Source of the DNA: Acidimicrobiales bacterium | GTDB lineage: Bacteria; Actinomycetota; Acidimicrobiia; Acidimicrobiales; SZUA-35 | DNA: 64,000 bases | Direction: 5' to 3' | Assembly: GCA_028285495.1 (NCBI GenBank) | Contig: JANQPB010000044.1 | Span: 124,001 to 188,000, forward strand | Shown: positions 5,408 through 32,042 of the stretch, piece after piece | How positions within the stretch are numbered: the first letter of the stretch is position 1 | How the letters are laid out: each line of letters begins with the position of its first letter | Notes under the pieces: generated by a model | What the model saw: the letters and a program-made list of their open reading frames with translations, nothing else | Told to the model about the DNA's origin: nothing | The model's database searches: none | Program-made: the position numbers and the translations under genes

Positions 5408-6465
5408 GGGCCCTCCCGACCGGGTCCGGCGCCGACCGACCCGTCGACCGGCCGATCGACCCCTGGCCCATCGACCGGCTGATCGACCGCTCGTCCGGTC
5501 GTGGTCTCGGCGCTCGATCCGGGCGGCGCCACGTCGATCGGGCCGGGCGGCCCCGATCGCTGCCCGCCCCGGGTCAGCCCGACGACGACGCCGGCCGGGA
5601 CCGCAGCGATCGAGACCAGGTGGTGGAGGGCGTGCAGGGCCACCCCGACGGCGGCCGACCGCAGCCCGAGGCGGCGCCGCAACACACCGTAGAAGCGGCG
5701 GTTGAGCGCGAGCAGCACCCCGCCGGCGGCGAGCGCAACCGGCGGGCGGCGGACCAGGATCCCGGCCGCGGCCACCAGCGACGCCAGTGCGCTCACCCGG
5801 TGGGTCCACCCGAGGTTGAGACCGGTCGGGGCCCGGCGGTCGCGGACCAGCAGCGCCACCCACGGGACCCCACGGCGGGCGAAGTCGGTCCGGACCATCG
5901 AGGCCAGCGTCCACGTCTTGAGGTGGGTGCCCTGGATGGTCGGATCGAGCAGGAGGTCGTCGCCGGCGGCCCGGAGCCGCATGCCGAGGTCGACGTCCTC
6001 GACGGACGGGTCGGGGAAGCGGGCCTCGTCGAAGCCGCCGATGACCAGGAATCGGTGGCGGCGGACGGCACCGAGGCCGGTCCAGAACGTCTCCGCCGGT
6101 CCGGCCCCCTCGTGATGGACGTGGTGGTGCAACAGGTTCCGGAAGGCCGAGACGGTGGCCCGGTCGGCGGGGGCGTCGTCGTAGGACCCGAAGACGGCGG
6201 TCAGCTCGGGCCGCTCGGTCATCGTCGACCGGACGCGGGCGATGGCGTCTCGGTCGACCTCGACGTCGGCGTCGACGAACAGCACGACCTCGCCGCTGGC
6301 CCGCCTGGCCCCGTCGTTGCGGGCGGCCGAGGCCGACAGCCCGGCCGGTCCGTCGACCACGATCGTCTCGTCGGCCCGGTCGGTCCCGGCCTCCAGCGCC
6401 CGGAGGCACCGATCGAGGGTGGGGGGTCGGTCGGTGGCCGGAACGACGACGGAAACCGTCACCAT
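5404..6465 (-). CDS. Membrane-associated glycosyltransferase family 2
   Basis: A 353-residue protein. Its GT-A motifs are TVSVVVPATDRPPTLDRCL at the N terminus, ETIVVDGPAG, ASAARNDGARRASGEVVLF, the metal site VLFVDADVEVDRD (D-x-D) and SVEDVDLGMRLRAAG (E-D-x-D, R). Residues around 225 to 300 hold two hydrophobic stretches (VSALASLVAAAGIL..., VSIAAVPAGVVVGL) that should anchor it in the membrane. The last 60 residues are a low-complexity Pro/Gly/Asp tail. The ATG at 6465 lies six bases after a TACACT hexamer, so the mRNA is probably leaderless. It leads an operon with the 50-codon ORF and the phosphatase, and is divergent from the flavoprotein at 6545. Sugar donor unknown. Confidence 0.82.
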   Translation of the reverse strand: MVTVSVVVPATDRPPTLDRCLRALEAGTDRADETIVVDGPAGLSASAARNDGARRASGEVVLFVDADVEVDRDAIARVRSTMTERPELTAVFGSYDDAPADRATVSAFRNLLHHHVHHEGAGPAETFWTGLGAVRRHRFLVIGGFDEARFPDPSVEDVDLGMRLRAAGDDLLLDPTIQGTHLKTWTLASMVRTDFARRGVPWVALLVRDRRAPTGLNLGWTHRVSALASLVAAAGILVRRPPVALAAGGVLLALNRRFYGVLRRRLGLRSAAVGVALHALHHLVSIAAVPAGVVVGLTRGGQRSGPPGPIDVAPPGSSAETTTGRAVDQPVDGPGVDRPVDGSVGAGPGREGP

Positions 6466-6471
6466 GGCCGG

Positions 6472-6477
6472 AGTGTA
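6472..6477 (-). promoter_or_regulatory. Putative -10 element of a leaderless promoter
   Basis: On the minus strand TACACT is followed by CCGGCC and then the ATG of the GT2 gene at 6465, the six-base spacing typical of leaderless transcripts. Confidence 0.5.
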
Positions 6478-6544
6478 CAGACCAGGTTGACGTCAACGAT
6501 CATGACGGCCGATCACGTCGAGGTAAGGGTACCTTCACTACCTT

Positions 6545-8083: not shown

Positions 8084-9495
8084 CCCCGTCGGGTGAGATC
8101 GGCGATCGCGCCGGTGTCGGCGGCCCGGCGCCGTTCGGCCGACCGGCGCTCTCGCTCGTCTGGACCTGCCTGGCCGTCGGCGCGCTGTCGACCCCGTTCC
8201 CGACCGCCCTCGGCTTCGATCCTTGGGCCTGGCTGGTCTGGGGCCGGGAGGTGACGGCACTGGAGCTCGACACCACCGCCGAGCCGTCGTGGAAGCCGCT
8301 TCCGGTGCTGGTCACCACGGTGGCCTCGCTCACCGGCGACCTGGCCCCGACGATGTGGATGGCGGTCGGCCGGACCGGGGGCCTGTTGCTCGTGGCCGGG
8401 GTGTTCGCCCTGGCGGCCCGGACCGCCGGGCCCCGGGCCGGCCTCGTCGCCCTCGCGCCCCTCGTGCTGACCCCGGACGGCGAGCCCCGGCTGATCCGGA
8501 CCATCGTCGAGGCCCACAGCGCTCCGATCGACGCCGCCCTGGCGGTCTGGGCGGTCGAGCGTCATCTGGCCGGGCGGCCTGGCATCGTCCTGGCCCTGCT
8601 GACCGCGCTCGGCCTCTCCCGACCCGAGGCCTGGCCGTTCCTCGTCGCCTACGGGGCGCTGGTCTGGTGGTGGCATCGGCCGCTGCGCCCGGCGGCGGTG
8701 GCGGCGCTTGCCGTGATCCCCCTGCTGTGGTTCGGCGGCGACTGGTGGGGCTCGGGCGACCCGCTGAGCGGTGCGGCGTCGGCCCGGGTCGGCGACGACA
8801 CGGCGATCGAGCGCCTCGCCGAGGCCCTGGGGACCGTCGGCGCCATCGTGGTGATCCCGGTGTGGATCGCCGCTGCGGTCGGTGTCGCCATGGCCCTGGT
8901 CGATCGGGACCGGGTGGTGCTGGCGGTCGCCGCTCTGGCTGCGGCCTGGTCTGCGGTGGTGGTTGGGATGGCGACCCTGCTCGGCTACGCCGCGCTGAGC
9001 CGGTTCCTGCTGCCGGCCGCAGCCCTGGCCTGCGTGCTGGCCGGCGTCGGGGGGATACGGGCCGTGGAGCGCTTCGGCCACCGACGGTGGACGATGACCG
9101 CCGTCGTCGCCGCCGTCCTCGTCGTGTCCGCACCCCAGCTGTCTGACCGGATCCGGGGCCTCGACGACGTGGCGTCGGAGATCCGGGCCCGGGCCCTGCT
9201 GTCGGAGGACCTGCCGGACGTTCTCGCCGCCGCCGGCGGGCCCGATGCGGTGCTGGCCTGCGGGACGGTGGCGGTCGAGGGAGCCACGCTCCTGTTGCCG
9301 GCGGTGGCGTGGGAGCTCGACGAGCCGATCTCGGCCATGCGGACCACACCCGAGGACGGACCGGTGGTCGTGTTCCTGATCAACGGCGCCGTCCAGGACC
9401 TGGCCCTGCTCGACTCCGACGCCGAGGTCCGGACGCTGGCCCAGTCGCTGGTGTGGTCGATCCACGCCGTCGACTGCGACACCGGGAGCGGCTGA
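8080..9495 (+). CDS. Polytopic membrane protein, possibly GT-C-like
   Basis: A 471-residue protein with about nine to ten hydrophobic helices, for example PALSLVWTCLAVGALST, VGRTGGLLLVAGVFALAA, IVLALLTALGLS, AAVAALAVIPLLWF, AIVVIPVWIAAAVGVAMAL and WTMTAVVAAVLVVSAPQL. A periplasmic-looking C-terminal domain of about 110 residues follows. An early loop has the acidic pair GFDPWAWLVWGREVTALELD, and another loop has PDGEPRLIRTIVEAHSAP. That layout (acidic residue after helix 1, helix bundle, soluble tail) resembles GT-C glycosyltransferases, but no family signature is secure. GTG start overlaps the preceding flavoprotein stop, so they are co-translated and probably act in one glycan pathway. Confidence 0.65.
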   Translation: MTPSGEIGDRAGVGGPAPFGRPALSLVWTCLAVGALSTPFPTALGFDPWAWLVWGREVTALELDTTAEPSWKPLPVLVTTVASLTGDLAPTMWMAVGRTGGLLLVAGVFALAARTAGPRAGLVALAPLVLTPDGEPRLIRTIVEAHSAPIDAALAVWAVERHLAGRPGIVLALLTALGLSRPEAWPFLVAYGALVWWWHRPLRPAAVAALAVIPLLWFGGDWWGSGDPLSGAASARVGDDTAIERLAEALGTVGAIVVIPVWIAAAVGVAMALVDRDRVVLAVAALAAAWSAVVVGMATLLGYAALSRFLLPAAALACVLAGVGGIRAVERFGHRRWTMTAVVAAVLVVSAPQLSDRIRGLDDVASEIRARALLSEDLPDVLAAAGGPDAVLACGTVAVEGATLLLPAVAWELDEPISAMRTTPEDGPVVVFLINGAVQDLALLDSDAEVRTLAQSLVWSIHAVDCDTGSG

Positions 9496-9523
9496 CGGCG
9501 GCGGGCGGGCGGGCGACCGACGA

Positions 9524-9922
9524 TCAGCCGGCGCCGGCGGCGTCGAGATAGTCCCGGACGGCCCGCTTCGATGCGCTGCACAGCCAGGCGTCGGTCACCA
9601 GCTCCTCGACGAGGCCGGGCTCGGCGGCCGACAGCTCGATCAGGAGCGAGGCGTAGCCGTCGAAGTGGGGGGTGGTGAACACCCCGGCGTGCCCCGCGTC
9701 GAGGATGGCGTCCTTCTCCCCCAGGTCGTCGACCCGGACCCCGATGATCGGATCGTCCGGCACGGGCCCGTCGCCGAACGACGCCAGGTCGGAGTTGCGG
9801 AGCGGCCGCTCCCAGACGAACAGCTTCGTGCCGGCCCGCCAGGCCCGGTTGCCGTACGAGGTGCCCTCGACCACACCGGGCAGGGTGAGGGCGAACGCAC
9901 CGACCTCGTCGAGCGTGCGCAC
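9524..9922 (-). CDS. MmcQ/YjbR family protein
   Basis: About 132 residues of the CyaY-like MmcQ/YjbR fold: VRTLDEVGAFALTLPGVVEG at the start, TSYGNRAWRAGTKLFVWERP, an acidic middle, and the ending TTPHFDGYASLLIELSAAEPG ... ELVTDAWLCSASKRAVRDYLD. These proteins are small, cytoplasmic, DNA-binding-like and of unclear role. The frame is open further upstream, but that part is antisense-like and overlaps the DUF3499 gene. The first plausible start is GTG at 9922, just downstream of the DUF3499 stop at 9943, giving the usual family length. Confidence 0.78.
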   Translation of the reverse strand: MRTLDEVGAFALTLPGVVEGTSYGNRAWRAGTKLFVWERPLRNSDLASFGDGPVPDDPIIGVRVDDLGEKDAILDAGHAGVFTTPHFDGYASLLIELSAAEPGLVEELVTDAWLCSASKRAVRDYLDAAGAG

Positions 9923-9942
9923 GGTTGCCGTCTGGTCCCCGG

Positions 9943-10608
9943 TCAGCCGGTGCTGGAGCGGAACGCTCGCGACAGCAGCGGCGACGAGGCCTGCATCTCC
10001 TCGGGCTCGTCGTCCTGGTACTGGTGGTGCCAGGGGAACCGCTCCTCGGGCTCGGCCGTCTCCTCGGGCACGTCGCGCCGGCGGGTCGGCCGAGACTCCG
10101 GCGCGTCGACCGCCTCGTCGTCGACCGCTCCGGCGTCGGTCTGGCCACGGCGGCGTGTGGACGAGCCGGCCCCGGCCCCCGCCGTTGCCCGGCCCGTCGC
10201 CCCGGGGGCGGGCTCGGGTTCGACCGACTCGCTCTCGGCGGCGCGGGAGCTGCGGAACAGGTGGTCGTCGCCGGCGACCGGTTGATCGACCCTGGTCGCC
10301 CGCTCCTCGATCGACTGGCGGCGCGACATCTTGCGGGCCACCGTCGGCTCGGGCCGGACCCGAGGCGGTGTCGAGGTCGGCACCGCCCCCTCGTCCGGGA
10401 CGGCGGACAGCGAGCGATTCCGGCTGCGCAGGTCGTTCATCGTCCACCCCATCGGCGGGGTGGTGGCGTCGGCGTGGCGGGCGCAGAGCGGCACACCGTC
10501 ACGGCTGATGCGGGGGTCGACCAACGAGACGGTCTCCGACGGCGCGTCGATCTGGAGGGTGGCGGTGGACTCCTTGCCACAACCCGGACGCCCGCAGAGG
10601 AATTTCAC
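9943..10608 (-). CDS. DUF3499 family protein (actinobacterial zinc-ribbon-like N terminus)
   Basis: A 221-residue protein. Residues 1-60 carry the conserved part: KFLCGRPGCGKESTATLQI, then PLCARHADATTPPMGWTMND. The C-x4-C plus C-x2-H arrangement could bind zinc. The remaining 150 residues are low-complexity, rich in Arg, Glu, Pro and Ala. DUF3499 is almost restricted to Actinobacteria, which supports the taxonomic guess. Function unknown. The GTG start at 10608 lies six bases after TAGGTT, an apparent leaderless promoter. It is divergent from the aminotransferase and is followed directly by the MmcQ gene. Confidence 0.8.
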   Translation of the reverse strand: MKFLCGRPGCGKESTATLQIDAPSETVSLVDPRISRDGVPLCARHADATTPPMGWTMNDLRSRNRSLSAVPDEGAVPTSTPPRVRPEPTVARKMSRRQSIEERATRVDQPVAGDDHLFRSSRAAESESVEPEPAPGATGRATAGAGAGSSTRRRGQTDAGAVDDEAVDAPESRPTRRRDVPEETAEPEERFPWHHQYQDDEPEEMQASSPLLSRAFRSSTG

Positions 10609-10614
10609 ACCAAA

Positions 10615-10620
10615 AACCTA
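10615..10620 (-). promoter_or_regulatory. Putative -10 element of a leaderless promoter
   Basis: TAGGTT (minus strand) followed by TTTGGT and the GTG start of the DUF3499 gene. This is the AT-richest spot of the divergent intergenic region. Confidence 0.5.
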
Positions 10621-10717
10621 GCATCTTTGGTCGCGCTCGGCCGTTCGTCCTGGTAGATGGGGTCGTCATCCGGTGCCAGCCACCTCCGGAGACGGCCCGG
10701 CGCCGGGCCGCCATCGG

Positions 10718-10723
10718 TAGCGT
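10718..10723 (+). promoter_or_regulatory. Putative -10 element of a leaderless promoter
   Basis: TAGCGT followed by TGGGGC and the ATG at 10730. Same six-base spacing as the divergent DUF3499 promoter. Confidence 0.45.
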
Positions 10724-10729
10724 TGGGGC

Positions 10730-11836
10730 ATGAACGCACCGCACCGCGACACGACCGTCGCCGGGGTCCGGCCGGCCGTCGCCGGCCTGGCCGCCTACCG
10801 GCCCGGCAAGGGCGCCGCCCAGGCCGAGGTCGAGCACGGCATCACCGAGGCGATCAAGCTGGCCTCGAACGAGAACCCGTTCCCGCCGATCCCGGCCGTC
10901 GTGCGAGCGGTCGAGGAGGCCGCCTCGGGCGTCAACCGCTACCCCGATCACCGGGCGACGGCCCTGCGGGAGCGGCTGGCCGACTGGGTCGGCGTCGAGC
11001 CAGAGCAGGTGGCGGTCGGCTGTGGCTCGGTCGGGCTGCTCCAACAGCTGTGCCTGACCTTCGTCGACCCGGGCGACGAGGTCGTCTACCCGTGGCTGTC
11101 GTTCGAGGCCTACCCGGTGTGCGTGAAGATGATGGGCGGTGTCCCGGTCAACCCGCCCCTGGTCGACCACGCCTTCGACATGGCGGGGGTGGCCGCGGCG
11201 GTGACCGACAAGACCAAGATGGTCCTGCTGGCCACGCCGAACAACCCGACCGGCACCGCCATCTCCACCGCCCAGGTGGCCGACCTGCTGGCCGCCATCG
11301 ACGACGACGTGATCGTGCTGGTCGACGAGGCCTACCGGGAGTTCAACGACCCAGCCCTCGGTGACCCGGTCGCCGACCTCACCCCCGACCACCCCAACCT
11401 GGTCGTGACCCGCACCTTCTCCAAGGCCTACGGCCTGGCCGGGCTGCGGGTCGGCTACGCCGTGTGCGAGCCCGGGATCGTGCGGGAGATCGACAAGATC
11501 CTGCTGCCGTTCGCCGTCAACGGCGCAGCCCAGGCGGCCGCGCTGGCCGCCATCGACTCGCTCGACCAGATCCAGCCGACGATCGACGAGCTGCTCGGCG
11601 AGCGGACCCGCCTGGTCGACGAGCTGACCGCCGCCGGGTGGTCGCTCCCCCCGGCCAACGCCAACTTCGTCTACCTGGCCACCGGCGACCGGACCGACGA
11701 GGTCTACCTCGGACTCGAGCGGGAGGGCGTCGTGACCCGGCCGTTCAGCGGGCAGGGGATCCGGGTGACGGTCGGCACCCGGGCCGAGAACGACCGCTTC
11801 CTGGCCACGCTCGACCGGGTCGCCCGAACCAACTGA
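10730..11836 (+). CDS. hisC: Histidinol-phosphate/aromatic amino acid aminotransferase (HisC/Pat type)
   Basis: A 368-residue fold-type I PLP aminotransferase of full length. Seen in order: YRPGKGAAQAEVEHG, IKLASNENPFPPIPAV, NRYPDHRATALRERLA, VAVGCGSVGLLQQLCL, LLATPNNPTGTAIS (Asn and Pro of the cofactor pocket), VLVDEAYREF (Asp and Tyr), TRTFSKAYGLAGLRVGYAV (the Lys that binds PLP) and the C-terminal VVTRPFSGQGIRVTVGT. It transfers an amino group from glutamate to imidazole-acetol phosphate or to an aromatic 2-oxo acid. The segment 'VAVGCGSVGLLQQL' is closer to the actinobacterial Pat (phenylalanine) enzymes than to classical HisC. There is no his operon nearby, so an aromatic role is likely. 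Stands alone. Confidence 0.85.
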   Translation: MNAPHRDTTVAGVRPAVAGLAAYRPGKGAAQAEVEHGITEAIKLASNENPFPPIPAVVRAVEEAASGVNRYPDHRATALRERLADWVGVEPEQVAVGCGSVGLLQQLCLTFVDPGDEVVYPWLSFEAYPVCVKMMGGVPVNPPLVDHAFDMAGVAAAVTDKTKMVLLATPNNPTGTAISTAQVADLLAAIDDDVIVLVDEAYREFNDPALGDPVADLTPDHPNLVVTRTFSKAYGLAGLRVGYAVCEPGIVREIDKILLPFAVNGAAQAAALAAIDSLDQIQPTIDELLGERTRLVDELTAAGWSLPPANANFVYLATGDRTDEVYLGLEREGVVTRPFSGQGIRVTVGTRAENDRFLATLDRVARTN

Positions 11837-11945
11837 CCGGGGCCATCCGGCCCATCACCCCACCCCACCCTCAAGACCGGAATCGGTGCGTCCGACCGGG
11901 GTTGCAGCACCGATGTCGGCCGGCGGGCCGCGGAAAGAGGGTGAG

Positions 11946-14735
11946 ATGCACGAGGGTGAGCGCAACGAACGGACCGGCGAGCGGTCCGAGCTGCACGGAC
12001 CCACGGCCAGTCTGAGCCAGTACCTGGCGCCGGTCCGCAACCAGAGCCGGGTCGTCATCCTGGTCACGGTCGTGGTGGTGGCACTTGGCGTCACGGTGGC
12101 CCTGGCCGGACCCCGCAGCTACACGGCGACCACGTCGGTCGTCGTCCAACCGGTCTCGGCCAACCCGAGCGAGGCGATCGAGGCGACCGAGCGGATCGCC
12201 GACATGGCGACCGAGGCCAGGATCGCGGCCTCGCAGGCCGTTGCCGTCGCCACCTCGGACGGGTTCCGTGAGCTGGCGGTCGAGATCGAGCCAGACGCCG
12301 TCGCCGACCGGATCACGATCACCAACCGACCCGAGGACTCCCGGGTGCTCGACATCGCCTACCGGGCCTCCGATCCGTCGGTTGCCCGCGTCGGCTCCGA
12401 GCTGGCCGCGGCGGCGTACCTCGAGTACCGCTCGGCCCTCAACACCGCCACCCTCGAGGCGTCCCGGACCGCCGTCGACGAACGGATCGCCGAGCTGCAG
12501 GACCGTCTGGTCGACGTCGACGAGCGGATCGACGAGACGGCGATCGGCAGCCCGGCCCGCCTGGCGGTCGAGGTCGAGCAGACCTCGATCCAGGGCGAGC
12601 TGGCGGCCCAGCAGCGGGCCCTGGCCGGCCTCTCGACCCTGGCCGTCGACACCGCGACCGTCATCGACGAGGCTCGCCAACCGAGCACGGCTGACGGGCT
12701 CGGTGCGGCCCAGATCATCGCCGGGGCCCTCGCCGGCGGCCTCGTCCTCGGTGTGATCGCCGCCTGGATCATCGACGCCATCGGTCTGCCGGCCGCCGGC
12801 GGACGCGCCGCCCCGAGCACGACGCCACGGCCCGCCGCACCGACCACGACACCCGAGGCCAACGGCGCCGAGCCGAGCCAGACGCCGAAGGGTCGGTTCC
12901 GCCGTCGGCGCCGGAAGGCGGAGCAGGAGCCGGACGACGTCGACGACCCGTTCGACGACACCGACGACCGCGATCCCCTCGAGCTGCTGAAAGCCCTCGA
13001 CGTCATCGAGGCCGATCCCTCGATCGCCTTCAAGGCCAGCAAGGAGAAGAAGGAGCGGGCCAAGGCCGAGGCGGCGGCCGCCGAGGCCGGCGACGCGCCG
13101 GACGAGGAGCAGAAGTCGTTCGCCGAGCTGTACCCCGTCGAATACTTCGACGCCGACGGCGACGCCGGCAGCCTCATCGACAAGCTCGAGGCCAGGAGCG
13201 ACGACGACGATCACGAGATCGGCCAGGTCCGCACCGACGAGGAGCTGCTGTCGTCGGTCGACCGGCTCCTGCGCAGCCCGACCGGTCGCCTGCCCGACCC
13301 CGTCGAGCCGGCGCCGCCCGCCGGTCCGGCCGCCGACGATCGAGCCGAGGCCGATCCGACGGCCGCCGAGTCGACGCTTGCCGAGCCGACCATCGACGCC
13401 GGCGAGCAGCTCGCCTGGCACGATCAGCTCCCCGACCATGGCATCGACGAGTCCGCCATGGCCGTCGAGGAGCCGGCACTCGGCACCCGGACGGCCGACA
13501 TCCCACTCGGCGACGCAGACGAGACCGCGCCGACCGTCGCAGACGACGTGTCGCCCGACGCGGGCGGCGACGCGAGCTGGGCCAGCGACCCCGCAGCGCC
13601 CCTCGACGCCACGTTCGACGACATCGGGCTCGGCGACGACTCGACCACGGGGGCCATGGCCGGCCTCGGCGGCGGCGTCGGCGAGGTCCCGCCGCTCGAC
13701 GACCTCTCCGAGTTCCCGCCGCCGACCGATCTGCCGATCGACGTCTCCTTCGAGGAGCACGCGTTCGACGGCCCCGTTTCGGGCGACGAGACGCCCGATC
13801 CGACGAACCACGCCGGCGACGGCGGTCTCGACGACGATGGCTTCCGCGACGCCGGCATCACCAGCGGCGATCCGAGCGACCTCGACCCGGGTCCGCCGTC
13901 GTGGGACGAGCCGTTCATCGGTCCGGTGACCTGGGACGAGCTGTCGGCCAGGCCCGGCGCCGACGCAACCCCGGCCAGGCCCGGACCGGGCGACGACGCC
14001 GAGCTGACCTCGATCGACCCCCGTGTCGATGACCGGATCGCGGCGCCACCGGCGGCCGAGCCCGGCGACCTCGCCCCGCCCCCGGCGGAGCTGCGAGCCA
14101 CCGACGACCTCGGCCGCCTGCTCGATCAGCTGGCCCGGATCGGTGGCGACGGCCCGGTCACGCTGCTCAGCGTCAGCGATCGCGACCCGACCGCCGGCCT
14201 GACCACCGGATTCGAGGTGGCCGACGAGCTGCGGGCCACCGGCTCACGGGTGCTGCTGATCGACACCCGCCTCGAGGAACCGGTCCTCGACGCCCTGTTC
14301 GACGGCGAGCCCAGGTGCGGCCTGGCCCAGGTGATGGCCGGCGACGAGGTCCTCGACCAGGCCATCCGTACCCTCGAGGGGCTCGACGGTCTGAGCCTGC
14401 TCCCGGTCGGCGCCGTCGGCCCCGACACCGCGGAGCTGCTGACCGGTCCGGCCCTCCCCCGACTGCTGTCCCAGGCCCAGCTCGACTTCGGATCGATCGT
14501 GATCATCGGCGAGTCGCTCGCCGGCCCCGAGGTCGACCCGACGACCACCAGGGCCAGGACCCGGGCACTGGCCGAGGCCGCAGACGGGCTCATCGTCGGC
14601 ACGACCGACCCGATCGGCTCCGGGCCGGACGAGGAGGTGGTCGAGGCCCTGGACGAGCTCCCGGCCCCGACCCTGCAGCTCCTGGCCGCCCACCTCCCGG
14701 TGGCCGAGACCACGACCGAGCCAGCGAGCGTGTGA
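11946..14735 (+). CDS. Wzz-like chain-length/capsule protein fused to a degenerate tyrosine-kinase (BY-kinase) domain
   Basis: A 929-residue protein. Residues about 22-56 give the N-terminal Wzz helix (RVVILVTVVVVALGVTVALA), followed by SYTATTSVVVQPVSANPSE, a periplasmic coiled region with repeated Asp/Glu/Arg heptads, and a second membrane helix at about 257-281 (IIAGALAGGLVLGVIAAWII). This is the polysaccharide co-polymerase layout that sets chain length. About 430 residues of acidic, disordered linker follow. The last 210 residues have the P-loop kinase fold: VLLIDTRLEEP is a good Walker A', but the Walker A site reads SVSDRDPTAGLTTG without GKT/S, and Walker B reads VIIGES. No C-terminal Tyr cluster exists. 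It is therefore probably a non-catalytic domain. Start ATG 11946 has AGAGGG just upstream. It overlaps the next gene by GTGA. Confidence 0.78.
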   Translation: MHEGERNERTGERSELHGPTASLSQYLAPVRNQSRVVILVTVVVVALGVTVALAGPRSYTATTSVVVQPVSANPSEAIEATERIADMATEARIAASQAVAVATSDGFRELAVEIEPDAVADRITITNRPEDSRVLDIAYRASDPSVARVGSELAAAAYLEYRSALNTATLEASRTAVDERIAELQDRLVDVDERIDETAIGSPARLAVEVEQTSIQGELAAQQRALAGLSTLAVDTATVIDEARQPSTADGLGAAQIIAGALAGGLVLGVIAAWIIDAIGLPAAGGRAAPSTTPRPAAPTTTPEANGAEPSQTPKGRFRRRRRKAEQEPDDVDDPFDDTDDRDPLELLKALDVIEADPSIAFKASKEKKERAKAEAAAAEAGDAPDEEQKSFAELYPVEYFDADGDAGSLIDKLEARSDDDDHEIGQVRTDEELLSSVDRLLRSPTGRLPDPVEPAPPAGPAADDRAEADPTAAESTLAEPTIDAGEQLAWHDQLPDHGIDESAMAVEEPALGTRTADIPLGDADETAPTVADDVSPDAGGDASWASDPAAPLDATFDDIGLGDDSTTGAMAGLGGGVGEVPPLDDLSEFPPPTDLPIDVSFEEHAFDGPVSGDETPDPTNHAGDGGLDDDGFRDAGITSGDPSDLDPGPPSWDEPFIGPVTWDELSARPGADATPARPGPGDDAELTSIDPRVDDRIAAPPAAEPGDLAPPPAELRATDDLGRLLDQLARIGGDGPVTLLSVSDRDPTAGLTTGFEVADELRATGSRVLLIDTRLEEPVLDALFDGEPRCGLAQVMAGDEVLDQAIRTLEGLDGLSLLPVGAVGPDTAELLTGPALPRLLSQAQLDFGSIVIIGESLAGPEVDPTTTRARTRALAEAADGLIVGTTDPIGSGPDEEVVEALDELPAPTLQLLAAHLPVAETTTEPASV

Positions 14736-16081
14736 CCGATCTGGCTGGCCCGGCCCATCCGGCCATCGGTCCCGACCCGGCCGTCGACGCAGGTCGGCCC
14801 GGCCACGACCGGGCGGCCAGCGGGCACGACGGTCGGCTGGTGGCGTGGCTCCTGGCCGCCTACCCGTTGGCCTGGGCCGTCGGCCTCGGGCTGGTCCACC
14901 ACGCGGCGCTGGCCGGCGCCATGGTGCTGTGGTTGCTGGTCAACCGCCCGCTCCGGGTTGCGCCGGGAACCGGCCCACTGGCCCTGTTCGTCGTCGTCGT
15001 CGCCCTCTCGGGGATCGGCCTCGAGTCGGCCGGCGCCGGCGCCCTGTTCCTGCTGCGATTGTCGTGGTATCTGGCCGCCCTCGCCTGCTGGCTGTACTTG
15101 ACCAGGCTGCGTGACGTGCTCGCCGGGCGGCGGGTCGTCCGCTCGCTCGTGTTGCTGTGGGTGCTGGTCGTTGCCGGTGGCTGGCTGTCCGTCCTGGCCC
15201 CCGACCTCGAGTGGTCGACGCCGCTCGCTCGGCTCCTGCCCGCCGCCCTGGCCGACAACGAGCTGATCGCCCGCTTCCTGGACCCGTCGGTCTCCGAGAC
15301 CCAGGTCTTCCGGTCCGACAACCTGACGCTGAACCGGCCCGCCGCCCCGTTCGCCTACACCAACGGCTGGGGCTCGGCGATGGCGCTGCTCACACCGTTC
15401 GCCCTGGCCGCCGTCCACGATCGCCGCCTCGGCATCCCCCGCCCGCTCGTCGTCGTCCTGCTCCTCCTGGCCCTGGTCCCGTTCACCCAGGCCCTCAACC
15501 GGGGCTCCTGGCTGACGCTCGGGATCGGTCTGGCCTACGGAGCGGTCCGCTGGGCCCGGCTGCGGCGGGACCCCCGACCGGTCGCCGTGCTCGGCCTGCT
15601 CGTGGCCGTCGGCCTCGCCGTCGCCTCGCTGACCGGCGTCGCCCAATCGGCCGCCGACTCGCTGGCCACCCGCTCGGCCGACTCGAACGAGACCAGGGCC
15701 GGGCTCTACCTGGAGACGATCGCCGAGACCACCGCCTCGCCCCTGATCGGCTACGGCTCGACCAGGCCGAGCATCGACAACCCCGACGGCCCGCCCCTCG
15801 GCACCCACGGTCAGCTCTGGGCGGTGCTGTTCGCCCACGGCTTCGTCGGCCTCGTCCTGTACGTCGGCTTCTTCGTCGCCGCGCTGGTCCGGGCCCGAGC
15901 CGAGACCCCGGTGCAGCACTGGGCCAAGGTGGCGCTGGTGATCGGACTGGTCCAGCTCCCGATCTACGGTCACCTCCCCCACCAGCTCTTCGTCATGGTG
16001 GCGGCCGCCGCCATCGTGGGCTGGCCGACCGTCGTCAACCACGTCGAACCCGGCCGGGCCGAGCGCCCTGTCGGGCGATGA
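14732..16081 (+). CDS. O-antigen polymerase/ligase family membrane protein (Wzy/WaaL-like)
   Basis: A 449-residue protein with about eleven membrane helices. The long periplasmic loop between helices is typical of O-antigen ligases, here SVSETQVFRSDNLTLNRPAAPFAYTNGWGSAMALLTPFAL. Downstream come LNRGSWLTLGIGLAYGA (conserved R in the 'sRg..l' motif) and GYGSTRP...GTHGQLWAVLFAHGFVGLVLYVG, whose His-x-x-x...G-hG pattern is the family's second loop. It should link or polymerise lipid-borne glycan units outside the membrane. The start is GTG at 14732 overlapping the Wzz fusion stop, and its stop overlaps the second flippase by ATGA, so three genes are translated as one unit. Confidence 0.78.
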   Translation: MTDLAGPAHPAIGPDPAVDAGRPGHDRAASGHDGRLVAWLLAAYPLAWAVGLGLVHHAALAGAMVLWLLVNRPLRVAPGTGPLALFVVVVALSGIGLESAGAGALFLLRLSWYLAALACWLYLTRLRDVLAGRRVVRSLVLLWVLVVAGGWLSVLAPDLEWSTPLARLLPAALADNELIARFLDPSVSETQVFRSDNLTLNRPAAPFAYTNGWGSAMALLTPFALAAVHDRRLGIPRPLVVVLLLLALVPFTQALNRGSWLTLGIGLAYGAVRWARLRRDPRPVAVLGLLVAVGLAVASLTGVAQSAADSLATRSADSNETRAGLYLETIAETTASPLIGYGSTRPSIDNPDGPPLGTHGQLWAVLFAHGFVGLVLYVGFFVAALVRARAETPVQHWAKVALVIGLVQLPIYGHLPHQLFVMVAAAAIVGWPTVVNHVEPGRAERPVGR

Positions 16082-17679
16082 CGAGCGGGACCGGGGCCCG
16101 ACTGAGCGGCGCGGGGACCACCGGGTCGGCGATCCGCGATCCGGCGGCGAGCGGTGCCGCCGGCGCCCGCACCGGACCGACCGCCGGGTCGGGACGGGCC
16201 GCCAGGGGCACGGCGCTCAACCTGGCCGGCTCGCTGGTCGGCACCGTGCTCGGGTTCGTGACCGTCGGGCTCGTCACCAACCACTGGGGTCCGGACGGGG
16301 CCGGGCTGTTCTTCGCCGCCACCGCTCTGTTCACGCTGGCCGCGAACGGGGTCAGGATGGGCTCGGAGGCCGGCCTCACCACGTTCGTCGCCCGGCTGCG
16401 GGCAGCCGACGACCACGTGTCGGTGCCAACGGTGGTGACCGCGGGGCTGACCACCACCGCCGCCGTGGCCACCGTCGTCGGGGCCGTCGGTCTGCTCGCC
16501 GCGCCCGACCTGGCGGCGTTGATCGCCGATGGCGACGCCGCCCGCCGCGACGCCACCACGATGCTGCAGGTCCTGGCCGTCGCCGTCCCGCTGTTCGCCG
16601 TCACCCAGGCGATGCTCGGTGCCAGCCGGGGCTTCGCCACGATGCGGCCGGCGGTCCTCGCCGGCCAGGTGGTCCGGCCGGGCTCGCAGCTGCTGGCGGT
16701 CGTCGTGGTGATCGTGACCGTCGACGCCCTGCCCGCCCTCGCCTGGGCCTGGGCGGCGGCGAGCGCGGTCACCCTGGCGGCGATCGCAGCCTGGCTCGGG
16801 CCTCGGCTCGCCCGGGTCCGGCGCCGGTACCCGGGTCCCGGCGACCCGGGCGCCGTCACCGCCTACCGCCGGTTCGCCGCCGGCCGGGCCGGGGCCGACC
16901 TCGTGTCGGCGGCGCTCGAGCGACTCGACGTGATCCTCGTCGCGGCCATCCTCGGCCAGTCGGGGGCCGGCCTGTACGGCGCCGCCGGCCGGTTGATCCT
17001 CGCCGGACAGCTCCTGATGATCGCCGGCGCCCAGTCGACGGCTCCGCTGCTGTCGGCCAGCTTCGCCGCCGGGCGGGACGACGACGCCAAGCGCCTCCTC
17101 CAGGTCACGACCGGGTGGAACGTGACGCTGCTGTGGCCGCTGTTCATCGGGCTCGGGTTCGGGGCGCCGACGGCGCTGGCCGCGTTCGGGCCGGACTTCG
17201 CCGACGGCGCGTCGCTCGTCGTCGTGCTGTCGGTGGCGATGCTGGCCATCGTGGCCATCGGCGGCGGCGACACGCTGCTCACCAGCACCGGCGACAGCCT
17301 GGCGTCGCTGCTCAACCACCTCGTCGCCCTCGCGGTGCTGGTGATCGCCGCCGTCACCCTGCTGCCGTCGATCGGTCTCGTCGGCGCCGCCGTTGCCTGG
17401 GCCCTGTCCCGGCTGACCCTGCGGATGCTCGCCACGGCCCGGGTGTGGCGGACCCGCGGCGTGCACGCACTCGGCCGGCCGCTGGCCCTCGCCGCCGGCG
17501 CCGCCGCCGTTGCCTGGGTCCCGACCGGTGCCGCCGCCCTGGCCCTCCTCGGTGACGGGCTCCCTGCGCTCGCCGCCCACGCCGTCGCCGGCGGTGCGCT
17601 GCACCTGGCCATCCTGGTCCGGCTGCGACGGGACCTCGAGCTCGACCGCTTCGTCGCCGTCGTCACCCGCCGCCGCTGA
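16078..17679 (+). CDS. Second Wzx-like flippase (MOP superfamily)
   Basis: A 533-residue protein. The first 45 residues form a Gly/Ala/Ser/Thr-rich cytoplasmic lead. About fourteen helices then start with ALNLAGSLVGTVLGFVTVGL and the family's NHWGPDGAGLFFAATALF. Further features are ASRGFATMRPAVLAGQVVRPG, LERLDVILVAAILGQSGAGLYGAAGRLI and TALAAFGPDFADGASLVVVL. It is a paralogue-type protein of the flippase at 1.4 kb rather than a duplicate, since lengths and loops differ. It is expected to translocate lipid-linked sugar units for the neighbouring polymerase and chain-length protein. ATGA overlap with the polymerase fixes the start. Confidence 0.82.
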   Translation: MTSGTGARLSGAGTTGSAIRDPAASGAAGARTGPTAGSGRAARGTALNLAGSLVGTVLGFVTVGLVTNHWGPDGAGLFFAATALFTLAANGVRMGSEAGLTTFVARLRAADDHVSVPTVVTAGLTTTAAVATVVGAVGLLAAPDLAALIADGDAARRDATTMLQVLAVAVPLFAVTQAMLGASRGFATMRPAVLAGQVVRPGSQLLAVVVVIVTVDALPALAWAWAAASAVTLAAIAAWLGPRLARVRRRYPGPGDPGAVTAYRRFAAGRAGADLVSAALERLDVILVAAILGQSGAGLYGAAGRLILAGQLLMIAGAQSTAPLLSASFAAGRDDDAKRLLQVTTGWNVTLLWPLFIGLGFGAPTALAAFGPDFADGASLVVVLSVAMLAIVAIGGGDTLLTSTGDSLASLLNHLVALAVLVIAAVTLLPSIGLVGAAVAWALSRLTLRMLATARVWRTRGVHALGRPLALAAGAAAVAWVPTGAAALALLGDGLPALAAHAVAGGALHLAILVRLRRDLELDRFVAVVTRRR

Positions 17680-17682
17680 GAC

Positions 17683-17696
17683 GAGCCGGCCGGCTC
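17683..17696. terminator. Small palindromic hairpin between convergent genes
   Basis: GAGCCGGCCGGCTC is a perfect 14-base palindrome that can fold as a 5-bp stem with a 4-base loop, four bases after a stop codon and ahead of the convergent sulfotransferase end. Weak evidence. Confidence 0.3.
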
Positions 17697-17717
17697 CGGG
17701 GACCCGCGGTCGTCGGT

Positions 17718-18641
17718 CTACCCGTTGGCCTCGTCGCTGCCCAGCCAGTCGAACCGCCGGCCGAGCATGGCGTAGAGCCGCTCGTTCGGCTCCCGGTACA
17801 GCTCGATCAGCCGGGCTCGTCTGTCGTGATCCATCGAGCGGTAGGCGTGGCCGTTGCGGTCGTCGCCGGTGTCGAGCGCAACCGGGTCGAGCCCGAGCCA
17901 GTCGGTGACGTCGCCGAGCACCCGATCGGGCCGGCGGTAGAACTCCTCGGACTGGACCACCATCACCCGGTCGCGGTCGTAGTGGCGGAACAGGCGCCCG
18001 AGCTGGTCGGCGTACAGGCCCTTGGCCAGGTACGAGTGGTGCTCGTGGTGATGGCTCCAGTACGACCAGTCCTGCTCCATCCGGTCGATCTCGCCCGCCA
18101 TCCGGTCGTCCTCGGCGGCCAGGGCCTCGGTGAGCGACAGGTCCTCGTGGCCATGGCTGACCGAGTGGTGGTAGTGCGACTCCGCCCGCCGCACCGGGTC
18201 GCGCAGCATCACCATCACCTTCACCTCCGGCAGGGCCTGCGCCATCCGCTCGACGGCGAAGGGGTGGAACAGGTAGTAGGGGCAGGCGTCGAAGGTGAAC
18301 AGGGGCCGCCCGGTCCGGGACTCGACGGAGCGGGCCCACGCCTCGGTCGGGAACTGCGACTGGAACCACTCCCAGCCCCGATGGAAGTTGTACGAGAAGT
18401 AGTGCGATCCCTTGCCCCGGCGTGGCCGCTCGACGTTCGGCAGCCGGTACAGCGCCTCGAACAGGGCCGTCGTGCCGCTGCGCTGGACGCCGGCGAGGAC
18501 GAGATCCGGCAGGACCCGTCGCTCCCACGTCGCCACGGCAACCCGTTCACGGCCCCACTTGCCGCCCTCCTTGAGGTGGCGGAGACCGGAGCGCTCCATC
18601 AGCGGGTGCTGGGAGACGCGGGTGATGATCCGGGTGCTCAT
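17718..18641 (-). CDS. PAPS-dependent sulfotransferase
   Basis: A 307-residue protein. The 5'-phosphosulfate loop is LVLAGVQRSGTTALFEAL and the 3'-phosphate site is VMVMLRDPVRRAESHYHHSVSHG (the R and S that hold PAPS). A middle block, KGSHYFSYNFHRGWEWFQSQFP, resembles the heparan/glycolipid sulfotransferase group ('K E p H f f ... y...y..lFp'). It would move sulfate from PAPS to a sugar hydroxyl. No signal peptide, so the acceptor is made in the cytoplasm. The start ATG at 18641 has AGGAGG upstream and overlaps the stop of the kinase-like gene by ATGA, so the two proteins are made together and probably decorate the same glycan. Confidence 0.82.
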   Translation of the reverse strand: MSTRIITRVSQHPLMERSGLRHLKEGGKWGRERVAVATWERRVLPDLVLAGVQRSGTTALFEALYRLPNVERPRRGKGSHYFSYNFHRGWEWFQSQFPTEAWARSVESRTGRPLFTFDACPYYLFHPFAVERMAQALPEVKVMVMLRDPVRRAESHYHHSVSHGHEDLSLTEALAAEDDRMAGEIDRMEQDWSYWSHHHEHHSYLAKGLYADQLGRLFRHYDRDRVMVVQSEEFYRRPDRVLGDVTDWLGLDPVALDTGDDRNGHAYRSMDHDRRARLIELYREPNERLYAMLGRRFDWLGSDEANG

Positions 18642-27097: not shown

Positions 27098-27658
27098 ATG
27101 ACGATCATGGAGCTCCACCACCAAGCGACCGACCAGCGGGACCGGGCCGCCGACGGCCGGACCCGAGCCGATGGCCCCGCTGACCCCGGCGCCGCCGGGC
27201 TCGCCGACGCCGAGCGGGCCACCGGCTTCGACCGACTGTTCGAGGATCGCCACCGCCACATGCTCCGCCTGGCCACCGGTCTCGTCGATCAGCCGTCCGT
27301 CGCCGAGGACGTCGTCCAGGAGGCCTTCCAACGGGTCTGGATCCGCTGGCACGATCTCGAGCAGCCGGCGGTCTATCTGCGGACGGCGGTGGTCAACGGT
27401 TGCAACGACGAGCTGCGCAAGCGCCGGGTCCGGCGCAAGACCGATCCGACCCTCCGACCATCGGCCCCGGCCGAGTCGCACTACCTGGTCGACGCCCTGT
27501 CCTCGATCGCCCCTCGCCGCCGCAAGGCGATCATCCTCCGGTTCTACGGCGGCCACACGCTGCCCGAGGTCGCCGAGGTCATGGGCATCCCGACCGGCAC
27601 GGCCAAGAGCCTGGTCCACCGTGGTCTGGCCGACCTCCGGGGCGCCCTGGCCGCCTGA
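27098..27658 (+). CDS. ECF-type RNA polymerase sigma factor (SigE-like)
   Basis: A 186-residue sigma-70 relative with two domains. Region 2 is FDRLFEDRHRHMLRLATGLVDQPSVAEDVVQEAFQRVW. The linker has YLRTAVVNGCNDELRKRRVRRK. Region 4 is IAPRRRKAIILRFYGGHTLPEVAEVMGIPTGTAKSLVHRGLADL, the helix-turn-helix that reads the -35 box. It directs RNA polymerase to a small regulon, usually envelope stress. No anti-sigma gene follows, which is unusual. The start ATG at 27098 has GAGAGGA upstream. The 270-base divergent gap to the protease (26828-27097) holds no gene; a GGGG-tgtgg-CCCC hairpin lies near 26995. Confidence 0.85.
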   Translation: MTIMELHHQATDQRDRAADGRTRADGPADPGAAGLADAERATGFDRLFEDRHRHMLRLATGLVDQPSVAEDVVQEAFQRVWIRWHDLEQPAVYLRTAVVNGCNDELRKRRVRRKTDPTLRPSAPAESHYLVDALSSIAPRRRKAIILRFYGGHTLPEVAEVMGIPTGTAKSLVHRGLADLRGALAA

Positions 27659-27695: not shown

Positions 27696-27757
27696 GCTGA
27701 CGGCAGGGTCCGCATCACCCCACAACGGCGTGGGGCGATGCGGGCCTCGCCGTCAGC
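27696..27757. terminator. Large two-part hairpin between convergent genes
   Basis: An outer stem GCTGACGGC/GCCGTCAGC (27696-27704 and 27749-27757) encloses a strong inner stem CCGCATC-a-CCCCAC with GTGGGG-c-GATGCGG (27710-27743) around a six-base loop. It lies between the sigma-factor stop and the GGDEF-EAL stop, overlapping the latter, and probably ends both transcripts. Confidence 0.65.
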
Positions 27758-30700
27758 TCGCGCTGACGGTTCCGACCTTGGCCAGCGCCGACGAGCGGTG
27801 GGTCGAGGTCGCCACCAGCCGGAGCCGACTCTCGGCGAAGTTGGTGGTGAGCAGCTTCTCGGCCGCGATGCCGGACATCCAGTCGAGCACCGCGAATCGA
27901 GGGTCGGACAGCGCCCGCGACAGCGCCGCCGACTCGACGAGTCGGCCTGGCGAGTAGTGCTGCCACTCGGTCGCCATCCGGCCGTCGTAGATGCGGTAGG
28001 TGTCGCCGTCGAGGATGGCGACCGCGTAGGCCGCCAGCTCGCCGTCGAGCCGGAGGGTGGCGATCTCGATCTCCCAGTCGTCGTTGCCCCCCTCGACGAC
28101 CCGCCGCCAGAACTCGCGTTCCGCCGGTCGGTCGAGGTCGCTGTTGCGCCTGGCGTGACGATCGCGGGAGATGTGGACCGCCTCGACCTCGTCGATCAGC
28201 TCGGACGAGATGGCCCGACCCCGGTCGAACGAGATGACCATCTCCAGACCGGCCTGCTCGATCCGGTTGCGGGCCTTGCGCAGCTGCTTGCGCTTGCCCT
28301 TGGAGAGGACCTGATCGGCGTTGTGAGCGGTCGAGAACACGACCCGGGGGACCCGCAGCTCGGGCAGCAACTGACCGTTGTCGAGCAGCTCGCTGAGGTG
28401 GCGGACCGTGGGATCGTCCTCGGGGATCTGCTCCAGCTCGAGGGCCCAGGTGTCGGACAGCTGGTCGAGGCAGTCGATGATCGCCGCGGCCAGCGCGCGG
28501 GCCGCGGCCGGATCGCGGGCCGGCAACCCGGCCCACAGCGAGGTGGTGTGGCCCATGGCCATGACCCGGGCGCCCGAGTCGGCCTGGTCGACCGCAAGCA
28601 GGGCGTAGGCCGCGAGCTGCCCCGTCTCGGGCATCCGCACGTCGACCATCATGGGCGTCCAGTTGGTGAACGACTCGGCCCAGTGCTGCAGCCACGACCA
28701 GCTGCCCATGATCGGCAGCTTGAGGTCCTCGGCCAGCTGCTGGACGTCGGCCGAGGCGGCCCGGATCTCGGGAAGCCCGTTGCGCAGCTCGATGTCGAAG
28801 CCGCGGTCCTGGACCTCCTCCGACTGCTGCCGCCAGGCCTCGAGCGGCTCCAGCTCGTCGTCGAGGTGCTCGCGGAACAGGGCGGTGAGGGCCGGGCCGT
28901 TGAGCGGGCGGCAGTAGTAGAAGCCCTGCCCACGGTCGCAGCCGAGGCGGCGGAGGATGCCGGCCTGGTCGGCGTACTCGATGCCCTCGGCCACCGTGTA
29001 GGCCCCCAGGGCCCGAGCCAGGTTGACCACCGCCTCGACCAGGGCCGACGACGTCGACGAGCGGTGGAGCTCGTTGATGAACGACCGGTCGATCTTGATG
29101 GCGTCGACCGGGAACGCCTTGAGGTAGCTGAGCGACGAGTAGCCCGTGCCGAAGTCGTCGATGGCCAGCTTGACCCCGATGGTCTTGAGCTGGCCCAGGA
29201 TCCCGACGCTGGCGTCGGCGTCGATGGCCAGCATCGACTCGGTGATCTCCAGCACCAGCCGGTTGGCCGGCAGGCCGGCGGCGGCGATGGCGTTGGTCAG
29301 GCCGTTGATCAGGCGGTCGTCCTCGAGCTGTCGCATCGACAGGTTGACCGAGACGCTGATCTCCTCGCAACCGGGGATCTTCTGCCACTGGGCGGCCTGG
29401 CGGCAGGCCTCCCGGAGCACCCAGTCGCCGATCGGCACGATCAGCCCGTTCTCCTCGGCCAGGGGGATGAACCGGTCCGGGGCGATCATGCCCCGCTCCG
29501 GGTGCTTCCAGCGGATCAGCGCCTCGACCAGGCTGACCTTGCCGGACTTGAGGTCGAAGATCGGCTGGAAGTGCAGCTGGAACTGGCCCTCGTCGAGGGC
29601 CCGCTGCAGGTCGGCCTTGAGATCGAGGCGCTCGACCGCCTCCTCGTGCATCGTCGGCTCGAAGAACTCGAAGCGACCCTTGCCCCTCGACTTCGACAGG
29701 TACATGGCGACGTCGGCGTTGCGCATCAGCGAGTCGACGTCCGAGGTCCCGTCGAGGTCGAGGGCGATGCCGATGCTGGCCTGGGCCCGAACGCTGCGGA
29801 CCCCGAGGTCGATGGGCTCGCCAAGCACCTCGAGGGCCCGGCGGGCCACGTTCATGGCATCGCGCCGGTCGACCGCCGACTCGAGCAGCACCGCGAACTC
29901 GTCGCCCCCGAAGCGGGCCACCGTGTCGCCGGCCCTCGTGACGCCGTCCAACCGCGAGGCGACCTCGGCCAGCAGCCGGTCGCCGGCCTGGTGGCCGAGG
30001 CTGTCGTTGACCGTCTTGAAGTCGTCGAGGTCGATGAACAGCACCGCGACCGGGTGCCGGCCCTCGGCTGCGGCCAGCGCCGTCCGGGTCCGGTCGGCGA
30101 AACGGACCCGGTTGGCCAGGCCGGTCAGCGAGTCGTGCTCGGCGTCGTGACGGAGCCGGTCCTTGCCCTGCTCGATCGTGCGGGTCAGGTCGAAGATGCG
30201 GACCAGGATCAGGAGGAACAGGAGGGCCGAGCAGGAGATGGTGACGATCCGGTCCTGCTGGTTGCCCCAGAAGAGATCGACGACCGGGACGCTGAGGGTG
30301 GCGACGAACATGATCACCAGCTGCACCGGTGTGAGGCGGTCCATGTCCTCGGGCTCCGGTGGCTTGCGGGCCACGGTCGGATGCAATGCGGCGAGGGCGA
30401 AGCCGACGTAGAACAGCAGCCAGAAGGCGTCGATGAACAGCCCGGTCCTGAACGTCCCGTTCTGCAGGTAGATCTGGTAGCCGGTGTCGGCGATGGCGAG
30501 CGAGCCGATGGCGGTGACGATGAAGGCGAACGGCGGGTGTTTCAGGTGGACCGTCACCACCAACCGGGCCGCCACCGCCAGGAGGGCCACGTCCATCACC
30601 GGATAGGCGAGCGACACCGCCAGGGCGTCGAGACTGGTGCCCGACCCGAAGAAGTCGTCGACGAAGAGCACCCAGAGGATGCCGAACATGGCGATGCCGA

Positions 30701-31121
30701 CGACCGCACCGTCGATGAAGCTGGCCCGGCTGCGACCGGGGGCGACGTGCTGCACCATCAGGGTGAGCCCGACGATCATCAGCGGGTACATCGACAGGTA
30801 GAAGGCGTCGGCGATGTTGGGGAAGGGCGGCCCGGCCTCGCCGGCCCGCAGCTCGATCACGTAGTAGATGACGTCGGCGGTGAGGAACGACGCCAGGCCG
30901 GCCCCGAACCAGAGCCAGGGGGCCATCGGTCGGGGACGGTGCCGCCACACTCCGACGACGAGGAGCACCAGCGACATGAAGCCGACGCCGTTGTACAGCA
31001 CCAGCTTCGACTCGGGCGACTTCTCGACCGCGAAGTAGACAACGGTCAGCGAGGCCGCGGCCAGGGCCCAGGCTTTCCACGCACTTTGCACGGTCCCTAC
31101 ATCGGCACGTCGGGCGAGCAC
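27753..31121 (-). CDS. Membrane GGDEF-EAL c-di-GMP protein fused to a CelD/BcsL-type GNAT acyltransferase
   Basis: A 1122-residue protein. Residues 1-310 hold about nine or ten membrane helices, a possible sensor. The GGDEF domain is at about 322-490, with [24 protein letters not shown], and an intact GGDEF motif at 405-409 preceded by the inhibitory-site RAGD at 396-399. The EAL domain is at about 495-755, with [43 protein letters not shown] and EGIE, so the phosphodiesterase residues look intact. Residues about 780-1105 are a second, unrelated enzyme: [21 protein letters not shown], then [29 protein letters not shown] and [16 protein letters not shown], the CelD/BcsL/FemAB-like acetyltransferase pattern known from exopolysaccharide loci. 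The start is GTG at 31121, with another GTG 10 codons later. The fusion is unusual. Confidence 0.85.
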
Positions 31122-31145: not shown

Positions 31146-32042
31146 CTAGCCGGCCCCCACGCCGACCAGGACCAGGGCCGTGGCCGCACCGACCAGGCCG
31201 GCGGTCTGGACGGGCACGATCCGCTCGGCCAGGACCAGCCGGGCCAGCAGGACGGTGGCCACCGGATAGAGCGACACGACGGCCGCCACCCAGGTCAGCG
31301 AACCCCCGTCGAGGGCGAGCAGGTAGAAGCTGTTGGCCGAGCAGTCGAGCACGCCGGCGGCGACGATCGCGCCGAGGTCGCCCCGATCGACACCGACCCG
31401 AACGGCCGATCGGGCGCGGAGCGCAGCGGCAAGCCCGAGGACGGCGATGGCGGCAGCCCGGGCGCCGAGCAGCGGGTGTAGACCACCGTCGGCCGAGGTC
31501 TGGGCGAGGGCGACGAAGAACGACCCGAAGCCGGCGCCGGCGACGAGCGCCAGCGTTCGGGTGCGGGCCTGGCGGAGACGCAGCCGGATCCGGTCCCGGG
31601 GGCCGAGGTCGATCCCGTCGGCCAGCCGAGCCAGGCCACCGACGGAGACGGCCACCCCGGCTGGCACCGCCAGGGCGATCCCGGCCAGGGTCAGCGAGCT
31701 CGGAACCTCACCGAGGGCGAGCCCGACGAGGACCGGGATCAGCGAGCCGACCAGGCCGGTGACCGAGGCCGCCGTCGACATCGGCCCCCGGGCCAGGGCC
31801 TCGTAGAACGCCGACAGGCCGACGGCGATGCCGAGGCCGGCCGCCGCCCCCCACAGCAGATCGGTCCCGAGCAACGAGCCCGGCCGGTAGACGGTGAGCA
31901 CCGCGAGCAACGCCAGCAGGCTGGCCACCTGCATGGCCAGGGTGACGGCAACCGGGTCGCTTCGCTTGGAGGCCAGGCCGCCCGAGAAGTCGGAGGCGCC
32001 GTACGAGAGCCCGGAGATGGTGGCGAAGACGACGGCGAGCAC
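31146..32042 (-). CDS. EamA/DMT-family transporter
   Basis: A 298-residue protein with ten hydrophobic helices in two similar halves, as in drug/metabolite exporters. The first half opens LAVVFATISGLSYGASDFSG and includes LSAFYEALARGPMSTAASVTGLVGSLIPVLVGL. The second includes GVLDCSANSFYLLALDGGSLTWVAAVVSLYPVATVLLARLVLAE, the conserved 'l.p....la..ll.E' ending of an EamA repeat. Substrate unknown. The GTG start at 32042 is only 17 bases from the start of the divergent membrane protein, so their promoters must overlap coding sequence. Confidence 0.8.
   Translation of the reverse strand: MLAVVFATISGLSYGASDFSGGLASKRSDPVAVTLAMQVASLLALLAVLTVYRPGSLLGTDLLWGAAAGLGIAVGLSAFYEALARGPMSTAASVTGLVGSLIPVLVGLALGEVPSSLTLAGIALAVPAGVAVSVGGLARLADGIDLGPRDRIRLRLRQARTRTLALVAGAGFGSFFVALAQTSADGGLHPLLGARAAAIAVLGLAAALRARSAVRVGVDRGDLGAIVAAGVLDCSANSFYLLALDGGSLTWVAAVVSLYPVATVLLARLVLAERIVPVQTAGLVGAATALVLVGVGAG

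Follow-up and report, generated by a model that had tools for sequence, protein, structure and literature searches.

A membrane-domain GGDEF-EAL protein of uncultured Acidimicrobiales carries a tandem GNAT domain and adjoins an EamA transporter gene

The pairing of c-di-GMP with a transferase of the GNAT type is already known (HfsK, PMC5362036; PixB, PMC8316039). HfsK of Caulobacter crescentus is a tandem GNAT protein nearest to FemX that binds c-di-GMP, is membrane-active and is required for holdfast cohesion; indirect evidence from the same study indicates that it modifies the holdfast polysaccharide (PMC5362036). Orthologues in several phyla are encoded within clusters of EPS genes, and HfsK itself is a separate soluble protein that binds c-di-GMP via R112 and a C-terminal Arg pair (PMC5362036). 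PixB of Myxococcus xanthus, which serves motility and development, carries an acetyltransferase domain and c-di-GMP domains in one chain, but the latter are two c-di-GMP-binding PilZ domains, and the protein has neither a cyclase or phosphodiesterase nor a membrane sensor (PMC8316039).

How a diffusible molecule such as c-di-GMP hits one target and not others is a long-standing question. Two further systems resemble the protein described here in tying signalling enzymes to envelope synthesis, namely DgcJ-NfrB, in which a dedicated c-di-GMP enzyme is tied to one exopolysaccharide synthase (PMC8669469), and RgsP, a membrane receptor with multiple helices that bears GGDEF and EAL domains and is linked to envelope synthesis (PMC6107284). 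In both, however, the partners are separate proteins and there is no GNAT domain. A cyclase, a phosphodiesterase and an envelope-type transferase joined in one chain represent a limiting case of local signalling, and such a chain is encoded by uncultured Acidimicrobiales.

The gene lies in the window (the whole 64,000-nucleotide stretch of DNA that was analyzed), where the open reading frame begins with GTG and encodes 1122 amino acids (Table 1). Because orthologues begin at the equivalent of a GTG codon at position 31091, this downstream codon is probably the true start, giving a gene of 27753..~31091 and a product of 1112 amino acids; the N-terminus reads MRTLWKIW in one orthologue and MQSAWKAW in the window protein. 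The initial annotation had proposed that a sensor, a GGDEF domain, an EAL domain and a GNAT domain reside in this single polypeptide, and Pfam matches, structural models and the recurrence of the chain in orthologues bear out that architecture.

Table 1. Features of the fusion locus in window coordinates; residue numbers are counted from 31121.
Feature	Position	Strand	Basis
Fusion gene: 10-helix membrane domain, GGDEF, EAL, tandem GNAT	27753..31121	-	ORF, Pfam, orthologue starts
Membrane domain, putative sensor, ten predicted helices, residues 8-317	30171..31100	-	AlphaFold2, hydropathy, conservation
GGDEF domain, residues 327-482	29676..30143	-	PF00990, E 1.3e-43
RxxD	29925-29936	-	Motif in GGDEF domain
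GGDEF motif	29895-29909	-	Motif in GGDEF domain
EAL domain, residues 503-739, catalytic residues intact	28905..29615	-	PF00563, E 2.8e-77; motifs
Tandem GNAT, FemAB-like fold, residues 776-1108	27798..28796	-	Model and fold search
Acetyltransf_6 match, second GNAT half, residues 943-1087	27861..28295	-	Pfam, E 4e-17
EamA/DMT transporter gene, directly upstream of fusion	31146..32042	-	PF00892, E 6.9e-15; adjacency in 17/18 genomes

The N-terminal portion had been called a multi-helix sensor, and it is indeed modeled by AlphaFold2 as ten helices (pLDDT 70.7), with hydropathy and conservation across 13 sequences supporting a membrane domain. The even number of helices would fit an N-terminus on the inside and enzyme domains in the cytoplasm. 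No named sensor family could be assigned, since Pfam gave no match to MASE or MHYT at E ≤ 1 anywhere in the fusion protein, Foldseek with the sensor model gave no match at E ≤ 0.001, and the structural matches found by VIA-align are to helical bundles. Helices 2 to 8 resemble 7TM rhodopsin/GPCR-like bundles with Z of 11 to 14, values that helical bundles can reach without kinship, and the resemblance may reflect merely a common helix arrangement.

Both c-di-GMP domains appear to be enzymes. The cyclase motif of the window protein reads R396-A-G-D...GGDEF, and all of the EAL catalytic motifs that were checked (EAL, N, E, DD, K, E and Q) are present, in keeping with the intact EAL domain previously proposed. 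The key catalytic residues of both domains are invariant among the nine orthologues and form complete sets, which is the mark of a bifunctional GGDEF-EAL protein. Judged by these residues, the fusion protein is predicted to have both cyclase and phosphodiesterase activity. The claim of an intact GGDEF domain with its RxxD inhibitory site holds for the window protein, but the site is not a conserved feature of the group, being kept in just five of the nine orthologues.

The C-terminal part had been proposed to form a complete CelD/BcsL/FemAB-like GNAT domain after residue 780. A profile search of this part, which the initial annotation had suggested, matched Acetyltransf_6 (PF13480, the CelD/BcsL-type GNAT family) at 63.2 bits, well above the curated cut-off of 22, and the domain proves to begin near residue 776. 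Residues ~775 to 1110 extend beyond the Pfam match and, in the structure prediction that had likewise been suggested, form a tandem GNAT (AlphaFold2 with 16 sequences; pLDDT 76.6, pTM 0.73). Foldseek ranks FemX of Weissella first among the PDB matches to this model (E 2.6e-12); a tandem GNAT of the clavulanate pathway comes next, and then the aminoacyl-tRNA-dependent synthase Sbb17 and MprF. With VIA-align, FemA (Z 18.9) and FemX (Z 18.1) match over 280 to 290 residues, and the acetyl-CoA enzymes 2wpx, MshD and a glucosamine N-acetyltransferase reach Z of 15 to 17. Thus, the fold leaves the donor, acyl-CoA or aminoacyl-tRNA, undecided. At the level of sequence profiles, FemAB_like (14.9 bits against a cut-off of 27) and LPG_synthase_C (15.1 against 27.5) fall below threshold, FemAB gives no match at E ≤ 1, NCBIfam gives no match to the C-terminal domain, and a PDB sequence search with the GNAT profile returned nothing useful.

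These results place the domain among several known groups without merging it into any of them. FemX, FemA and the synthase domain of MprF share its tandem-GNAT fold over ~290 residues (Z 15 to 19), but they are only 7 to 13% identical to it, their profiles score below cut-off and they have no c-di-GMP link. CelD/BcsL-type GNATs (PF13480) share the profile match, and the nearest stand-alone relatives occur in exopolysaccharide loci, but these are separate proteins without c-di-GMP domains. HfsK is alike in its tandem GNAT near FemX, its tie to c-di-GMP, its action at the membrane and its link to surface polysaccharide, the role of the fusion protein itself being a prediction. In contrast to HfsK, the GNAT of the fusion forms one covalent chain with a membrane sensor and both c-di-GMP enzymes, and it has an EamA partner. 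The tail after residue 1106 is short, varies among orthologues and lacks an Arg pair, HfsK having been compared by its published description only. Because the C-terminal Arg pair of HfsK is not seen, we do not class the fusion protein as HfsK.

The initial annotation had also called for a search for the same architecture elsewhere, and the chain was found in 11 further genomes. Among the first 41 genomes searched, the whole chain occurs in nine, including that of the window, and the eight other full-length orthologues in the family are 63 to 81% identical. The same chain is encoded by G052, G054 and G179 in frames of 1142 to 1178 amino acids, G179 being an occurrence in a second family. This recurrence in 11 other genomes from two families rules out an assembly chimera or a chance fusion. 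Within the family, an orthologue of the sensor (>300 bits) is present in 13 of 39 genomes and always belongs to a fused gene, although the copies in G045 and G048 are cut by a contig end, and the C-terminal domain is detected at E ≤ 0.001 in 16 of 39, one of which (G016) gives a weak match only. The C-terminal domain is present in 12 of the 298 genomes searched in the order and in 4 of the 396 that sample the phylum, a rarity that rules out a linker common to ordinary GGDEF-EAL proteins. Hosts in the named records are uncultured Acidimicrobiales, Acidimicrobiia or other actinobacterial bins.

Orthologues compared part by part have mean pairwise identities of 77% in both EAL and the second GNAT half, 72% in GGDEF and 56% in the first GNAT half. 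Therefore, the GNAT core is constrained as strongly as the EAL domain. The same parts also exist unfused. In G033, G170 and G140 (another family), a related membrane-(PAS)-GGDEF-EAL protein and a GNAT protein are encoded by consecutive genes on the same strand, and the separate GNAT (383 to 387 amino acids in G033 and G170) is 37 to 38% identical to the fused domain. That the parts are fused in one lineage and adjacent in another is classical evidence for joint function.

A diverged version of the fusion is found in G007 (loci L010/L074), G009 (L011) and G011 (L012), all from the genus of the window genome, with 42 to 51% identity over the matched stretches. It includes a proline-rich linker of ~200 residues, and GGDDF and ECL stand in place of GGDEF and EAL. 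Its GNAT domain lacks a conserved basic helix (KSKRKQLRRAR; KxxRKQLRRAR) and a late Lys residue, both of which every canonical copy and the split GNAT genes retain, and there is no EamA neighbor. Thus, the loss of the GNAT motifs and the loss of EamA go together in these genomes, and the diverged version is a natural form that has either decayed or been repurposed. Fused, split and decayed natural versions are open to comparison.

The EamA gene itself matches its Pfam family in two stretches (56 bits against a cut-off of 28.2). Of the genomes that carry the canonical fusion or the split form, 18 in all, EamA adjoins the pair in 17, and it does so in several gene orders. The gene lies upstream and is codirectional in nine canonical-fusion genomes (G000, which is the window genome, G002, G012, G014, G020, G023, G024, G054 and G179), an order seen again in a further bin (L043); it is divergent from the fusion in G021, G045 and G048, convergent in G052, and follows the GNAT gene in G033, G170, G140 and G197. 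In this tally EamA is cut by a contig end in G140 and G023, and the G197 contig begins inside the GNAT gene. The sole genome of the 18 that lacks an adjacent EamA is G013. Across the family, the canonical fusion and a close EamA orthologue are both present in 12 genomes, the fusion alone in G013, EamA alone in G042 and neither in 25 (Fisher p 4e-8, kinship of the genomes being ignored). Order and strand vary and yet the link is kept, which suggests selection for the fusion-EamA pair. More distant EamA homologues have unrelated neighbors at the two loci that were read. EamA is not a general companion of sensor-GGDEF-EAL genes, as it is absent beside such genes that have no GNAT in G030, G029, G034 and G032. 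In G042, the locus with the close EamA orthologue (L088, 3818-6201) includes a second EamA-like gene nearby, and no fusion was found in that genome.

EamA proteins carry mostly small metabolites. The protein encoded here matched no characterized subfamily, and NCBIfam and PDB sequence searches with it returned nothing useful. ArnE/ArnF, which belong to the related small-multidrug-resistance family, are flippases for a lipid-linked sugar (PMC9574504).

Evidence for a glycan substrate comes from relatives of the GNAT domain. The nearest stand-alone relatives in other lineages (L083 and L084) are located beside Wzy, Wzx and polysaccharide-deacetylase genes. One such locus (G673) holds a polysaccharide-deacetylase-like gene, a second Acetyltransf_6 gene, the GNAT relative, a Wzy-type polymerase, a Wzz-like gene and Wzx, and another (G337) holds a polysaccharide deacetylase, the GNAT relative and a Wzy-like gene. 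In G031 (L069, 2893-7981), a GGDEF-EAL gene with a different sensor is followed by a Wzx flippase, with weak NCBIfam matches to HfsF and Wzx_EPS, and by a GNAT relative; this row is an independent c-di-GMP/GNAT/flippase cluster. The presence of a Wzx flippase at the place of EamA favors an export or flipping role for EamA. These contexts independently support the proposed glycan role, but acylation of a glycan stays putative, the fold being at least as near to the aminoacyl-tRNA-dependent FemX and FemA as to acetyl-CoA enzymes.

The surrounding genome had also been described as rich in glycan export genes. A Wzx/Wzy-type polysaccharide locus is indeed present at 1434-18641 of the window, comprising two flippase-like genes, a Wzz-like gene, an O-antigen ligase/polymerase, two GT2 glycosyltransferases, a flavin amine-oxidase-like enzyme and a sulfotransferase, but it is ~9 kb from the fusion, whose constant neighbor is instead EamA, a gene absent from the initial annotation. 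Unrelated genes on both strands lie between, which rules out an operon joining the two. No glycosyltransferase or polymerase gene is a conserved neighbor of the fusion itself.

We tentatively favor, at somewhat below an even chance, a model in which the protein is a c-di-GMP-linked, membrane-held acyl- or aminoacyltransferase that acts on a glycan or a lipid-linked precursor and has EamA as its exporter. The 10-helix domain in the cytoplasmic membrane would sense a cue, and the GGDEF and EAL domains would synthesize and hydrolyze c-di-GMP. Held on the cytoplasmic side of the membrane, the FemAB/CelD-type tandem GNAT would move an acyl or aminoacyl group onto a precursor destined for the cell surface, most probably a glycan linked to a lipid or a nucleotide, at a time set by local c-di-GMP or by the conformation of GGDEF-EAL. 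EamA would then carry the product or its precursor across the membrane. From the gene context of distant relatives we infer the glycan acceptor, and the direction of control and the role of EamA are likewise putative.

The constancy of EamA, matched by no glycan gene, would also fit a scheme in which the GNAT N-acylated a cytoplasmic metabolite that EamA then secreted, with c-di-GMP control as an add-on coupling secretion to lifestyle. Small-molecule acetyl-CoA tandem GNATs (2wpx of the clavulanate pathway and MshD) are among the structural neighbors, but we consider this explanation unlikely given that the nearest sequence relatives outside the module reside in polysaccharide loci and that G031, which lacks EamA, has a Wzx-type flippase at that place. 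The structural ranking of FemX and FemA, then Sbb17 and MprF, would fit instead an aminoacyl-tRNA-dependent transferase resembling FemX or MprF, which would aminoacylate a membrane lipid or a precursor of the wall for EamA to flip. MprF has a flippase and a GNAT in one protein, and a GNAT accompanied by a multi-helix transporter parallels its flippase half, so that the module would be a split functional analogue of MprF. The flippase domain of MprF is absent from the fusion chain, where GGDEF-EAL occupies its place. This alternative seems quite unlikely to us, since LPG_synthase_C and FemAB_like remain below their cut-offs, the best sequence match is Acetyltransf_6, and acetyl-CoA enzymes have the same fold.

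A non-catalytic role, in which the GNAT fold is a binding or regulatory domain that localizes or tunes the c-di-GMP enzymes, would accommodate G007, G009 and G011, where the fusion persists despite loss of the basic helix and late Lys. We judge it improbable, because GNAT residues are conserved in canonical and split copies, the second half is as constrained as EAL, and the existence of a separate GNAT gene next to the same partners speaks for an independent activity. Returning to the favored model of a membrane-held transferase, a stricter form holds that the protein sets a private c-di-GMP state, that c-di-GMP gates the GNAT in cis, where otherwise the GNAT would simply be located together with local c-di-GMP turnover, and that EamA is a dedicated flippase for the modified lipid-linked product, making a self-contained signal-to-surface module. 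Such a module appears rather unlikely on present evidence, although, if cis gating does occur, this would be, to our knowledge, the first c-di-GMP metabolic enzyme whose own chain includes a catalytic output domain that modifies the envelope.

Our literature search found no GGDEF/EAL-GNAT fusion, no such transferase joined to both c-di-GMP enzymes and a membrane sensor, and no link of one to EamA, nor did it find a paper on c-di-GMP in Ilumatobacter. Its link to the fusion makes EamA a partner that can be tested, and through it one branch of a transporter family that is large and little understood could gain a function.

The window genome has five further Acetyltransf_6 matches over cut-off outside the fusion, on contigs C14, C31, C40 and C41. 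At the 3′ end of the fusion gene, an ECF-type sigma factor gene (27098-27658, plus strand) is convergent with it.
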